A stretch of DNA of 64,000 bases from Hamadaea sp. Its GTDB lineage: Bacteria; Actinomycetota; Actinomycetes; Mycobacteriales; Micromonosporaceae. Shown one piece after another: positions 11,248 through 45,606 of the stretch. Below the pieces are notes generated by a model. It was given only the letters and a program-made list of their open reading frames with translations, ran no database searches and had not been told where the DNA came from. Positions within the stretch are counted from its first letter, which is position 1. Each line of letters starts with the position of its first letter. The position numbers and the translations under genes were made by a program. Location of the stretch: contig NZ_JABFVK010000013.1 of NCBI RefSeq assembly GCF_013362815.1, forward strand, positions 124,001 through 188,000, read 5' to 3'.

Positions 11248-12105
11248 TCAGCCGCGCCTGTCGGTTGCTGGGGCGAGTCTGGCCAGCCTTTGCGGATCGG
11301 CCACTATGTCGATGTGCAAGATTCTTTCGTCGGCGGTGACGGTTAGGAGCAGGATCAATGCCAGTCGCCCGCCCGGGGCCACCTCGATTGCGGGTTCGCC
11401 GTCGATCAGCGCGATATGGGCGTAGGCGGCTTGGTGGGAGAATGCCAGCGCATGCCGTGCTACCGAGTCGGGACCGCGCACCGTTACGGGCACGTTGTTC
11501 GGTGCTGCTGTGGCGTCGGCGCGTGCGGTGACCTCCGGGTCGAGCAGGTCTAGTAGATCCTGGTAGTCGCCGTTGCGGGAGGCGGCAAGAAACGCCTCGA
11601 CGACCCTGACCCGCCCGGCCAGATCGGTGTCCGACGGCGCAGGGTGGCGCACGCGGTGGCGTGCCCGGCTGGCCAGCATCTTGGTGGCCGGTATCGAGCG
11701 GTCCAGAATCTGCGCGACCTCCGCGAACGGCACCACGAACAGGTCATGCAACACGAAGGCCAGCCGCTCGGCCGGGGACAGCTTGTTCAGGACGACCATG
11801 AGGGCCTCGCCAACGGTGTCGGCCAGCGTGACTTCCTGCTCCGGACCGGGCACGTCAGCCGGCATGGCCGCGTCGAGGGAGACCTCGGCATGGGTGGCGC
11901 GTGCTCGCAGCATGTCCAGGCAGATCCGCGCGACCACGGTGGTCAGCCAGGCACGGGCATTGCGCACGTCGCCGCCATCGGCCCGGGCAAGACGCAGCCA
12001 CGCCTCCTGGAGCGCGTCGTCGACGTCGCTGGCCGACCCCAATATCCGGTACGCCACCGCACGCAGATGTTCGCGGTGCGTGCTGAATTCCTCGGACAGA
12101 TCCAC
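11248..12105 (-). CDS. ECF41-type (SigJ-like) RNA polymerase sigma factor
   Basis: This is an alternative sigma factor of 285 residues with region 2 (about 10-75: YRILGSASDVDDALQEAWLR), region 4 (about 115-165: LSPAERLAFVLHDLFVVPF and KMLASRARHRV) and a C-terminal SnoaL-like extension of about 110 residues, the hallmark of ECF41. That extension regulates the sigma factor in place of a separate anti-sigma factor in the known family. The DGGGR motif usual after region 4 is not conserved here (VTARADATAA). It starts with GTG after GGAAGG, six bases away. It is divergent from an SRPBCC gene across 75 bp that hold two mirrored ECF41-like promoters, the same layout as at 43444-44304. Confidence 0.92.
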   Translation of the reverse strand: MDLSEEFSTHREHLRAVAYRILGSASDVDDALQEAWLRLARADGGDVRNARAWLTTVVARICLDMLRARATHAEVSLDAAMPADVPGPEQEVTLADTVGEALMVVLNKLSPAERLAFVLHDLFVVPFAEVAQILDRSIPATKMLASRARHRVRHPAPSDTDLAGRVRVVEAFLAASRNGDYQDLLDLLDPEVTARADATAAPNNVPVTVRGPDSVARHALAFSHQAAYAHIALIDGEPAIEVAPGGRLALILLLTVTADERILHIDIVADPQRLARLAPATDRRG

Positions 12106-12107
12106 GC

Positions 12108-12133
12108 GTTACCTTCCGTGCCCGGTGCCCGTC
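12108..12133 (+). promoter_or_regulatory. ECF41-like promoter, rightward (SRPBCC gene)
   Basis: GTTACC (12108-12113) and CGTC (12130-12133) are exactly 16 bp apart, close to the published ECF41 consensus TGTCACA-N16-CGTC. Start would fall near 12140. The -35 element overlaps the ribosome-binding site of the divergent sigma gene on the other strand. Confidence 0.65.
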
Positions 12134-12142
12134 TTCCATGGT

Positions 12143-12168
12143 GACGCCCGACGGCCCGTCAAGGTAAC
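12143..12168 (-). promoter_or_regulatory. ECF41-like promoter, leftward (sigma gene)
   Basis: On the minus strand GTTACC (12168-12163) and CGTC (12146-12143) are 16 bp apart, mirroring the rightward promoter. It would make the sigma gene autoregulated. The two -35 boxes span 61 bp, as at the second ECF41 locus. Confidence 0.65.
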
Positions 12169-12180
12169 AAGGAGGAACTG

Positions 12181-12606
12181 ATGTCTGCTCTCGTATCCAC
12201 GATCGAGATCGACTGCCCGCCGGACAAGGTCTTCGCCGTTGCCACCGACCCGCACCGGTATGCCGATTGGCAGCGTGACGTGGTCGGCGTACGCATGACC
12301 GGCGTGAGCACCTTCGTGACGACCCGGCGGTTCGCCGGCGCGAAGCGGGCCATGACGCAGGAGGTCACCCGCAACGAGCCGCCATGTAGCTTCGCTGTGC
12401 GGGGTGTGGACGGCCCGGTTCGGGCGCACGCTTCGATCGAAGTCGAACCGCTCGACGAGGGCACCCGATCGCGGGTGACGTTCACCCTCGATTTCGACGG
12501 TCACGGCGTCGGCACGGCGTTGATCCCTCTGGTGCGCCGGCAGGCCGCCAGGGGAGCCCCGGTCAGCTACGCCAACCTCAAGCGCCTTCTCGAACAGAGC
12601 CCATAG
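12181..12606 (+). CDS. SRPBCC-family (polyketide cyclase/START-like) protein
   Basis: This 141-residue cytoplasmic protein has the SRPBCC helix-grip pattern: an N-terminal strand STIEIDCPPDKVFAVATDP, then RYADWQRDV, alternating beta strands, and a long C-terminal helix (PLVRRQAARGAPVSYANLKR). Such proteins bind small hydrophobic ligands, and the substrate cannot be told. AAGGAGGA at 12169-12176 gives a clear start. It is the divergent partner of an ECF41 sigma gene and is probably its main target, in the position usually held by carboxymuconolactone-decarboxylase-like or oxidoreductase genes in ECF41 loci. Confidence 0.85.
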   Translation: MSALVSTIEIDCPPDKVFAVATDPHRYADWQRDVVGVRMTGVSTFVTTRRFAGAKRAMTQEVTRNEPPCSFAVRGVDGPVRAHASIEVEPLDEGTRSRVTFTLDFDGHGVGTALIPLVRRQAARGAPVSYANLKRLLEQSP

Positions 12607-43443: not shown

Positions 43444-44304
43444 TCAGGCGATGCCGGGCAGGTCGAGAGTCGCCAGCCGGGCCGGATCGACGATGGCCGT
43501 GATGCCGGTGATCCGGCCGTCGGCGACGGTGAAGGACAGCAGTGACATCGGGCTGCCGTCCGCGCGCCAGGTGAGCATGCCGAGCAGTCCGTTGACGAAG
43601 ACCGCGCGGCCGGCCGCGGCGGATCCGCCGCCCCAGCGGGCCCCGGCGGCGACCTTGGTGGCGCCGAGGACGACGATCTCGCCGTCCGGGCCGTCGACGG
43701 TCAGCCGGACCTCGGGATCGAGTACGCGCAACAGCCCGTCGAAGTCGCCGTCCCGGGCCGCCGCCAGGAAGGCGTTGACCACCTCGCGCTGTTCGGGACC
43801 GGCCGCCGTGTCGCGGTCGTGCGAGCGCACCTTCCGGCGAGCCCGGCTGGCCAGCATCTTCGTCGCGTCGGCCGATTTGCCCAGAATGCGGGCGATCTCG
43901 TCGAACGGGACGGCGAACATGTCGTGCAGCACGAACGCCAGGCGCTCGTTCGGTCCGAGCGAGTCGAGGACGACCAGCAGTGCCAATCCGACCGAGTCGG
44001 CCAGTGCCACGTCATCCTCGACATCCTGACCGTCGTCGGGCACGACGATGAGGTCGTAGGAGGCCTCGGGATGAGCCCGGCGCGACCGCAGCAGGTCGAG
44101 GCTGATCCGGCCGACGACCGTGGTCAGCCAGGCCGCCAAGTTGTCGATCGTCGCCGGATCTTGGCGGGAGAGCCGAAGCCAGGCTTCCTGGACGACATCC
44201 TCGGCGTCGGCGCGCGACCCCAGCATGCGGTACGCCACCCCGCGCAGCCGCTCGCGTTCGGCCTCGAACGCCGCCGCCGTCGGATCCGGGCTCGTGTCGG
44301 ACAT
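43444..44304 (-). CDS. ECF41-type (SigJ-like) RNA polymerase sigma factor
   Basis: This is a 286-residue sigma factor related to the one at 11248-12105. Region 2 includes YRMLGSRADAEDVVQEAWLR and TVVGRISLDLLRSRR. Region 4 includes LGPNERLAFVLHDMFAVPFD and KMLASRARRKV. The SnoaL-like C-terminal domain runs from about residue 175 to the end. The usual DGGGR motif reads DGPDG here. AAAGG lies seven bases before the ATG. It is divergent from an AhpD/CMD-family gene, the classic ECF41 partner, and the intergenic region holds mirrored GTTACC-N16-CGTC promoters. Confidence 0.93.
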   Translation of the reverse strand: MSDTSPDPTAAAFEAERERLRGVAYRMLGSRADAEDVVQEAWLRLSRQDPATIDNLAAWLTTVVGRISLDLLRSRRAHPEASYDLIVVPDDGQDVEDDVALADSVGLALLVVLDSLGPNERLAFVLHDMFAVPFDEIARILGKSADATKMLASRARRKVRSHDRDTAAGPEQREVVNAFLAAARDGDFDGLLRVLDPEVRLTVDGPDGEIVVLGATKVAAGARWGGGSAAAGRAVFVNGLLGMLTWRADGSPMSLLSFTVADGRITGITAIVDPARLATLDLPGIA

Positions 44305-44307
44305 CTT

Positions 44308-44333
44308 GTTACCTTTCTCGGGACTGCTCCGTC
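44308..44333 (+). promoter_or_regulatory. ECF41-like promoter, rightward (AhpD-like gene)
   Basis: GTTACC (44308-44313) and CGTC (44330-44333) are 16 bp apart, as at 12108-12133. Position relative to the sigma start differs by a single base between the two loci. Confidence 0.68.
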
Positions 44334-44342
44334 ATGGGTGAC

Positions 44343-44368
44343 GACGAGCCCGACCGGGCGAAGGTAAC
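44343..44368 (-). promoter_or_regulatory. ECF41-like promoter, leftward (sigma gene)
   Basis: On the minus strand GTTACC (44368-44363) and CGTC (44346-44343) are 16 bp apart. With the rightward copy it makes a 61-bp mirrored pair identical in geometry to 12108-12168, implying autoregulation. Confidence 0.68.
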
Positions 44369-44853: not shown

Positions 44854-44895
44854 ATGGTCATTTCCGGGCTGTGATGGCGACCTGGAAATGACCAT
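44854..44895. repeat. Intergenic palindrome, copy 1
   Basis: ATGGTCATTTCC (44854-44865) and GGAAATGACCAT (44884-44895) pair perfectly with an 18-base loop. The left flank TTGATC matches copy 2 at 45555-45606. It follows the AhpD-like gene by 15 bp and may terminate it. Confidence 0.75.
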
Positions 44896-45554: not shown

Positions 45555-45606
45555 TGATCATGGTCATTTCCCCGTCGCTATCACGACCCGGAAATGACCA
45601 TGATCA
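45555..45606. repeat. Intergenic palindrome, copy 2
   Basis: TGATCATGGTCATTTCC (45555-45571) pairs perfectly over 17 bp with 45590-45606, with an 18-base loop. It shares the sequence from TTGATCATGG to ATTTCC with copy 1. It lies between convergent genes and probably terminates both. Confidence 0.8.

Follow-up and report, generated by a model that had tools for sequence, protein, structure and literature searches.

Mirrored promoter pairs at a near-constant gap beside ECF41-like sigma factor genes, read as candidate bidirectional promoters

Two genes for ECF41-like sigma factors in the window (the whole stretch of Hamadaea DNA that was analysed, 64,000 nucleotides long) are each separated by a short gap from a divergent partner gene, and both gaps carry the motif GTTACC-N16-CGTC in both directions. 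The question raised by these loci is whether such a site consists of two promoters that happen to be neighbors or of one element that can be used in two orientations. The starting point was a sequence-only reading of the window, which placed the sigma genes and their partners on either side of the gaps, in agreement with the boundaries of the open reading frames, and which correctly quoted the published bipartite ECF41 motif as TGTCACA-N16-CGTC, as reported by Wecke et al. in 2012 (PMC3426412). A table in the same paper places this motif at 36 sigma genes and 41 partner genes of 55 divergent loci (PMC3426412).

The window contains exactly four GTTACC-N16-CGTC matches, which form one inverted pair in each of the two sigma/partner gaps: 12108-12133 (+) with 12143-12168 (-), and 44308-44333 (+) with 44343-44368 (-). 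Shuffled versions of the window contain 0.10 matches on average and none of 100 reaches four, so that the count given in the sequence-only reading holds, as does its measurement of 61 bp between the outer -35 ends at both loci; the inner gap is 9 in each case. Over the whole 7.45 Mb genome, the motif occurs 17 times as a single match, and only the four window copies are arranged as inverted pairs (inner gap 0-30); these four are also the only ones that continue as GTTACCTT. The positions of the individual elements are collected in Table 1. A different inverted repeat, ATGGTCATTTCC ... GGAAATGACCAT, is present in two copies (window 44854-44895 and 45560-45601) that flank a small gene downstream of locus 2; its four exact arms compare with a shuffle mean of 0.00, and it is possibly a terminator-like or mobile intergenic repeat.

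Table 1. Positions in the window of the two mirrored sites, their promoter elements and the adjoining genes.
Feature	Position	Strand	Basis
ECF41/SigJ-like sigma gene, locus 1 (285 aa, GTG start)	11248..12105	-	Pfam Sigma70_r2 and r4_2 above cutoff
Partner-directed -35 GTTACC, locus 1	12108..12113	+	sequence
Likely Shine-Dalgarno GGAAGG of the locus 1 sigma gene; the partner -35, antisense, runs into it	12117-12112	-	
Partner-directed -10 CGTC, locus 1; predicted start region of the sigma-directed promoter on the opposite strand	12130..12133	+	start inferred
9-bp inner gap, locus 1; common to both predicted melted regions	12134..12142	.	
Sigma-directed -10 CGTC, locus 1; predicted start region of the partner-directed promoter	12143..12146	-	start inferred
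Sigma-directed -35 GTTACC, locus 1	12163..12168	-	
Likely Shine-Dalgarno AAGGAGG of the locus 1 partner	12169-12175	+	
Partner gene, locus 1: SRPBCC / Polyketide_cyc2 protein, 141 aa	12181..12606	+	
ECF41/SigJ-like sigma gene, locus 2 (286 aa, ATG start)	43444..44304	-	Pfam Sigma70_r2 and r4_2
Partner-directed -35 GTTACC, locus 2; antisense, it runs into the likely Shine-Dalgarno of the sigma gene	44308..44313	+	
Partner-directed -10 CGTC, locus 2	44330..44333	+	
9-bp inner gap, locus 2; common to both predicted melted regions	44334..44342	.	
Sigma-directed -10 CGTC, locus 2	44343..44346	-	
Sigma-directed -35 GTTACC, locus 2	44363..44368	-	
Partner gene, locus 2: carboxymuconolactone decarboxylase / AhpD-like protein with a CxxC motif (CSVC), 149 aa	44389..44838	+	

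Both genes had been called ECF41 sigma genes, a label that proved right in a looser form. The best NCBIfam match of the locus 1 sigma factor is SigJ (PRK09636) with 215.5 bits, and the locus 2 sigma factor matches SigJ with 231.2 bits, both below the cutoff of 271. Residues 11-277 of the latter also match Mycobacterium tuberculosis SigJ (PDB 5xe7) by sequence (E 1.2e-42), and 5xe7 is the top fold match of its structural model (E 3.6e-16, TM-score 0.46). This model, with a pTM of only 0.53, contains an alpha+beta C-terminal domain and has NTF2-like proteins among its fold matches. The ECF41 layout of regions 2 and 4 followed by a SnoaL/NTF2-like C-terminal extension of some 100 aa was thus found by Pfam and in the locus 2 model, and Pfam itself reports no SnoaL domain in either window sigma factor. 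As for the gene neighbor typical of ECF41 (carboxymuconolactone decarboxylase, CMD, oxidoreductase or epimerase), CMD is present at locus 2 and SRPBCC instead at locus 1; the window promoters keep the N16 spacer and CGTC, with GTTACC rather than TGTCACA as the -35. Within the C-terminal extension, ECF41 factors have motifs named DGGGR/K and NPDKL. DGGGK and NPDKL, together with WLPEP or WLPDP, are carried by the sigma factors of three plasmid loci (L183, L184, L186); DGGG is absent from the window sigma factors, near whose ends DPARL and DPQRL can be read in the sequence. The extension is described as having three conserved motifs, and WLPEP, in the linker between regions 2 and 4, is called characteristic of ECF41 by Wecke et al. 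(PMC3426412). This linker motif is absent from both window sigma factors, whereas M. tuberculosis SigJ carries it and also has RQ where the locus 2 sigma factor has KM. Because the window proteins are SigJ-like over most of their length but lack WLPEP, they are called ECF41-like here. Seven other sigma genes of the genome, including that of locus 1, match the locus 2 protein at E ≤ 3.3e-30. Outside the window, the nearest of these is L002 (56% identical), with a single strict GTCACA-N16-CGTC of the published type and possibly a degenerate opposing copy.

Whether the arrangement extends beyond these two loci was addressed with a DNA-only search for the inverted pair in the window, its family and species genomes, in which the inner gap was left free from 0 to 30. 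Among 200 genomes of the window's family, 15 have an inverted pair, always at gap 8 or 9, and a reversed control pattern has no match in the same 200 genomes. Among about 85,000 species genomes, the same search gave a sample of at least 118 loci. When the family, window and species matches listed are pooled (at least 135 rows), the gap is 8 in 67, 9 in 67 and 10 in one. Window locus 1 recurs in this set as L038 and four other sites were entered twice, which leaves at least 130 distinct site sequences among the matches listed, with gap 8 in 65, 9 in 64 and 10 in one. Of these 130 sites (among the matches listed), 126 have an ECF41-like sigma gene no more than 1 kb away; the four with no sigma gene in that distance are L142, L151 and L153, which are at locus ends, and L136.

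A looser pattern, GTYACM, was then applied to 396 genomes of the phylum, giving 16 sites in 14 genomes, GTCACA and GTCACC pairs among them. The gap is 8 or 9 in ten of the sites, 11 in four from one family, 4 once and 30 once. The site with gap 4 (L169) adjoins an ECF41-like sigma gene and was kept as an exception to the gap rule; that with gap 30 (L174) was taken as a chance match. The pairs at gap 11 (L170-L173) are GTCACA pairs from four genomes of the one family. Mirrored pairs at gap 8 were also found at four of ten plasmid loci, with GTCACA in three from Rhizobium (L177, L180, L181) and GTTACC in one from Streptomyces (L178); a divergent CMD gene is annotated in two of the three Rhizobium loci, the third being a record without annotation. 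The mirrored geometry also occurs with the published GTCACA -35, including these three Rhizobium plasmid loci. No pair was found at L183, L184 and L186, the plasmid loci whose sigma factors have the published ECF41 signatures.

A search that starts from the motif can return only loci that have it, and a sigma-first survey was made as well, in which the DNA upstream of 97 sigma genes (E ≤ 1e-50) was read. These genes come from 49 of 148 genomes of the class, and both window loci are among them. With strict motifs, 22 of the 97 loci are paired, at gap 8 in 14, at gap 9 in six, and once each at gaps 5 and 18. A relaxed motif (GTYAC-N18-GTC on both strands) raised the pairs at gap 8 or 9 to 26 (17 and nine, respectively), again with both window loci included, and gave four further single pairs at gaps 5, 18, 26 and 44. 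Of the 34 loci that have both promoters, 26 are mirrored; 28 of the 97 have neither promoter, and some have one intact promoter only. No pairs occur in a control window inside the sigma gene at any of the 97 loci, and dinucleotide shuffles yield 0.000 pairs per 97 loci. Conservation of the paired motifs in related loci, which the sequence-only reading had suggested checking, was thus found. At the same time, 71 of the 97 loci have no pair at gap 8 or 9, which counts against the explanation favored below, as do the 28 loci with neither promoter, the pairs at other gaps, the unpaired plasmid loci with ECF41 signatures, and sites that lack an evident divergent gene.

Further information came from the -35 elements. 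In the strict sigma-first pairs with N16 spacers (20 in all, 19 at gap 8 or 9 and one at gap 5), the third position of the two -35 hexamers agrees in 19 (T/T in 11, C/C in eight), and one is mixed. This base goes together with the sigma factor residues that correspond to K149-M150 in the locus 2 protein, a position in the second helix of the region 4 helix-turn-helix (helix 145-166 in the model). Among 146 unique mirrored loci (gaps 8, 9 and 11 accepted, identical first 120 aa counted once, 11 mirrored loci left out whose fragment lacks region 4), the position reads KM in all 122 T/T loci and RQ, RK or KK in all 23 C/C loci; the single mixed T/C locus has KM. The covariance of sigma region and -35 proposed as a check in the sequence-only reading is therefore seen for region 4, and the match suggests that one sigma factor would read both promoters. 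Exceptions to the rule are three unpaired promoters, of which two have GTTACC with KQ and one has GTTACG with RQ, and only three independent contrasts on the tree bear on the link; they all agree, with p 0.25.

This tree contains 142 of 145 sigma factors, proteins shorter than 200 aa having been left out; L168 had yielded no sigma. On it, the third -35 position changed between T and C at least five times, the gap switched between 8 and 9 at least nine times, and at least 14 changes took place between the mirrored and the unpaired state. The window loci belong to two separate GTTACC clades, so that GTTACC, which had been taken for a variant of one lineage, is a -35 variant that evolved repeatedly. 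Shared descent is nevertheless part of the explanation of the constant gap.

The divergent partners include proteins of nine Pfam families (CMD, SRPBCC (Polyketide_cyc2), DoxX_2, NAD_binding_10, FAD_binding_4, MFS_1, MMPL, Glyoxalase and Flavodoxin_2), to which a weak DUF1059 match can be added, and the partner at L225 has no Pfam match among the proteins scanned; the geometry therefore goes with the sigma gene. The starts of open reading frames were placed mechanically, from length and from GC by codon position. In the motif-first set, 114 of the 135 rows yielded a partner frame, and among the matches listed these comprise 76 CMD, 23 DoxX-like, six SRPBCC (with window locus 1 counted twice) and nine singletons, some of them doubtful. 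By a reading of such calls, 22 of the 26 mirrored sigma-first loci have a divergent frame no more than about 100 nt away from the start of the sigma gene, and two more have one within about 210 nt; the remaining two, L249 and L260, have none. At L178, CMD and DoxX genes lie downstream of the sigma gene instead of divergent from it, so that the pair is kept without an adjacent divergent gene at L178, L249 and L260. At L091, L124 and L139, the outward promoter is followed by a short stretch that resembles the start of a CMD gene (ATGGAAGCAC...). A complete gene was not called there, and it looks as though the mirrored promoter had outlasted a decayed partner. The SRPBCC partner of locus 1 (12181-12606) also has a sub-threshold NCBIfam match (40.6 bits, cutoff 100) to the 'type II toxin-antitoxin system Rv0910 family toxin'.

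The fine anatomy of the sites is asymmetric. On the sigma side, ATG or GTG follows GGTAAC by 1-5 nt in 125 of 126 distinct sites among the matches listed, 92 of them at 3 nt, and a purine-rich, Shine-Dalgarno-like stretch is present in all 131 rows examined, by a loose test. The -35 of the partner therefore lies within the translation start region of the sigma gene. This position accounts for the extra 'TT' that the sequence-only reading had assigned to both outer arms: TT follows GTTACC on the partner-directed side in 100 of 126 sites and on the sigma-directed side in 22 of 126 (among the matches listed), and the partner-directed TT is the antisense of the Shine-Dalgarno region of the sigma gene, not part of a general symmetric arm. 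Compared with mononucleotide shuffles, the partner leaders have folding energies that are lower by 1.8 kcal/mol on average; the difference amounts to 2 kcal/mol or more in 64 of 126, against three of 126 sigma leaders. The possible hairpin at the 5' end of the partner transcript lies in the spacer of the sigma-directed promoter (e.g., window 44343-44368); it is not put forward as functional because its base-pair covariation is weak and depends on the register.

The paired motifs, the fixed gap, the agreement of the -35 elements, the link to region 4 and the variety of partners were all computed from the sequences, and together they make it probable that each site serves the adjoining ECF41-like sigma factor as a single bidirectional promoter with dyad symmetry, fired one way at a time. 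A holoenzyme containing this factor would bind the element in either of two mirror orientations, one of which would lead to the sigma gene, as positive autoregulation, and the other to the partner gene. The putative -10 elements point towards each other across 8 or 9 bp. For the ECF41 motif of Sinorhizobium meliloti, the mapped start is 9 nt past CGTC (PMC3616915), and the promoter sequence in PMC6180224 agrees with this distance if its last base is the start. At about this distance, the -10 of each promoter would overlap the start of the other, both promoters would melt nearly the same base pairs, and the divergent transcripts would be predicted, from the S. meliloti distance, to start about 8-10 bp apart. 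Owing to this overlap and to the common melted stretch, the two orientations would exclude each other, as two holoenzymes could not both be open at one element, and the sharing of bases between the promoters may be the reason for the fixed gap of 8 or 9. The sequence-only reading had proposed simultaneous autoregulation and target activation, with two holoenzymes face to face. Inverted promoters for one sigma factor remain from this proposal, and simultaneity probably does not: since the two regions predicted to melt are almost the same, the orientations more likely alternate than cooperate, and two holoenzymes engaged at once are probably impossible.

One different explanation is that a compact intergenic region simply contains two sigma-dependent divergent promoters of the ordinary kind, whose spacing was inherited from one ancestor and is functionally meaningless. 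Such an origin would suit sites that nearly all adjoin one sigma family with many close relatives, and Wecke et al. often found the motif on both divergent genes (PMC3426412). It is nonetheless unlikely, given that spacers and partners turned over while the gap, switching at least nine times, stayed mostly at 8 or 9, and that three loci (L178, L249, L260) keep the pair with no divergent gene next to it. A little less credit is given to the possibility that one direction only is active, the other being a weak or relic promoter kept for the start region of the first or for the translation start of the sigma gene. The partner-side -35 does adjoin the sigma start codon in 125 of 126 sites, and single intact promoters exist at some loci; however, neither a Shine-Dalgarno nor a start-site role needs the -35 elements to match at position 3, as they do in 19 of 20 pairs, and 22 of 26 mirrored sigma-first loci have a divergent frame about 100 nt or less from the sigma start, which also speaks against this possibility.

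The site could also be an operator, in which a repressor or activator binding the GTTACC/GGTAAC arms or the CGTCAT...ATGACG core controls both genes. The core is indeed palindromic, ATCACCCAT being the inner sequence in 32 of the 126 distinct sites with a sigma gene (among the matches listed). This alternative, which had been raised in its repressor form, fits poorly and was set aside because the arms track the region 4 residues of the sigma factor. In addition, the arms keep the N16 distance to a -10 element that is known from published ECF41 promoters, a gap that can be either 8 or 9 should be too variable for a rigid dimer, and an unsystematic look at the loci read noticed no regulator gene beside sigma and partner; an operator is thus highly improbable.

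For the mirrored bidirectional promoter, a more far-reaching form can be put forward, with about an even chance of being right: the -10 of each promoter would be the start of the other, one melted stretch would serve both directions, the arrangement would be widespread among ECF41-like sigma genes, a reversible choice of orientation would hard-wire the output ratio of sigma factor to target, and the element would stay with the sigma gene while partners are swapped. A bolder variant is that the fused NTF2-like domains may allow joint contact of two sigma subunits with the symmetric element. If both directions fire, a single 61-bp element would couple the self-activation of a regulator to its target in a simple way, and the spacing rule of the gap would suffice to identify regulators of this kind by their DNA alone. 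A constant element beside varied partners offers a way to predict the targets of these sigma factors, and the KM/RQ position of region 4 set against T or C in the -35 gives a recognition rule that can be tested.

How does this arrangement compare with known systems? The ECF41 target promoters of Wecke et al. have the N16 spacer and the CGTC -10 in common with the window sites, and both divergent genes often carry the motif there, whereas the -35 is TGTCACA in place of GTTACC (PMC3426412). The passages of that paper covered here give no geometry between the two promoters, and words beginning with 'palindrom', 'inverted' or 'bidirectional' do not occur in its text. Within the open-access literature, judged mostly from listings, no paper was recognised as describing the geometry of a mirrored ECF41 pair. 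Another related system is the sigma-70 bidirectional promoter, which the polymerase binds either way and whose divergent starts are by definition 7-25 bp apart; its -10 elements coincide and its starts are usually separated by 18 bp (PMC10268837). Divergent starts from one symmetric element, predicted in our case, are likewise a feature of that type, but its coinciding -10 elements are not found here, where they are 8 or 9 bp apart. The mirrored ECF41-like element further differs in having two -35 elements and an ECF sigma factor, with each -10 predicted to lie over the start of the other promoter and the starts about 8-10 bp apart. If both directions fire, bidirectional promoters would be extended from sigma-70 to ECF sigma factors, and the mirrored element is then a variant of the bidirectional promoter, with a different overlap and an ECF sigma factor.
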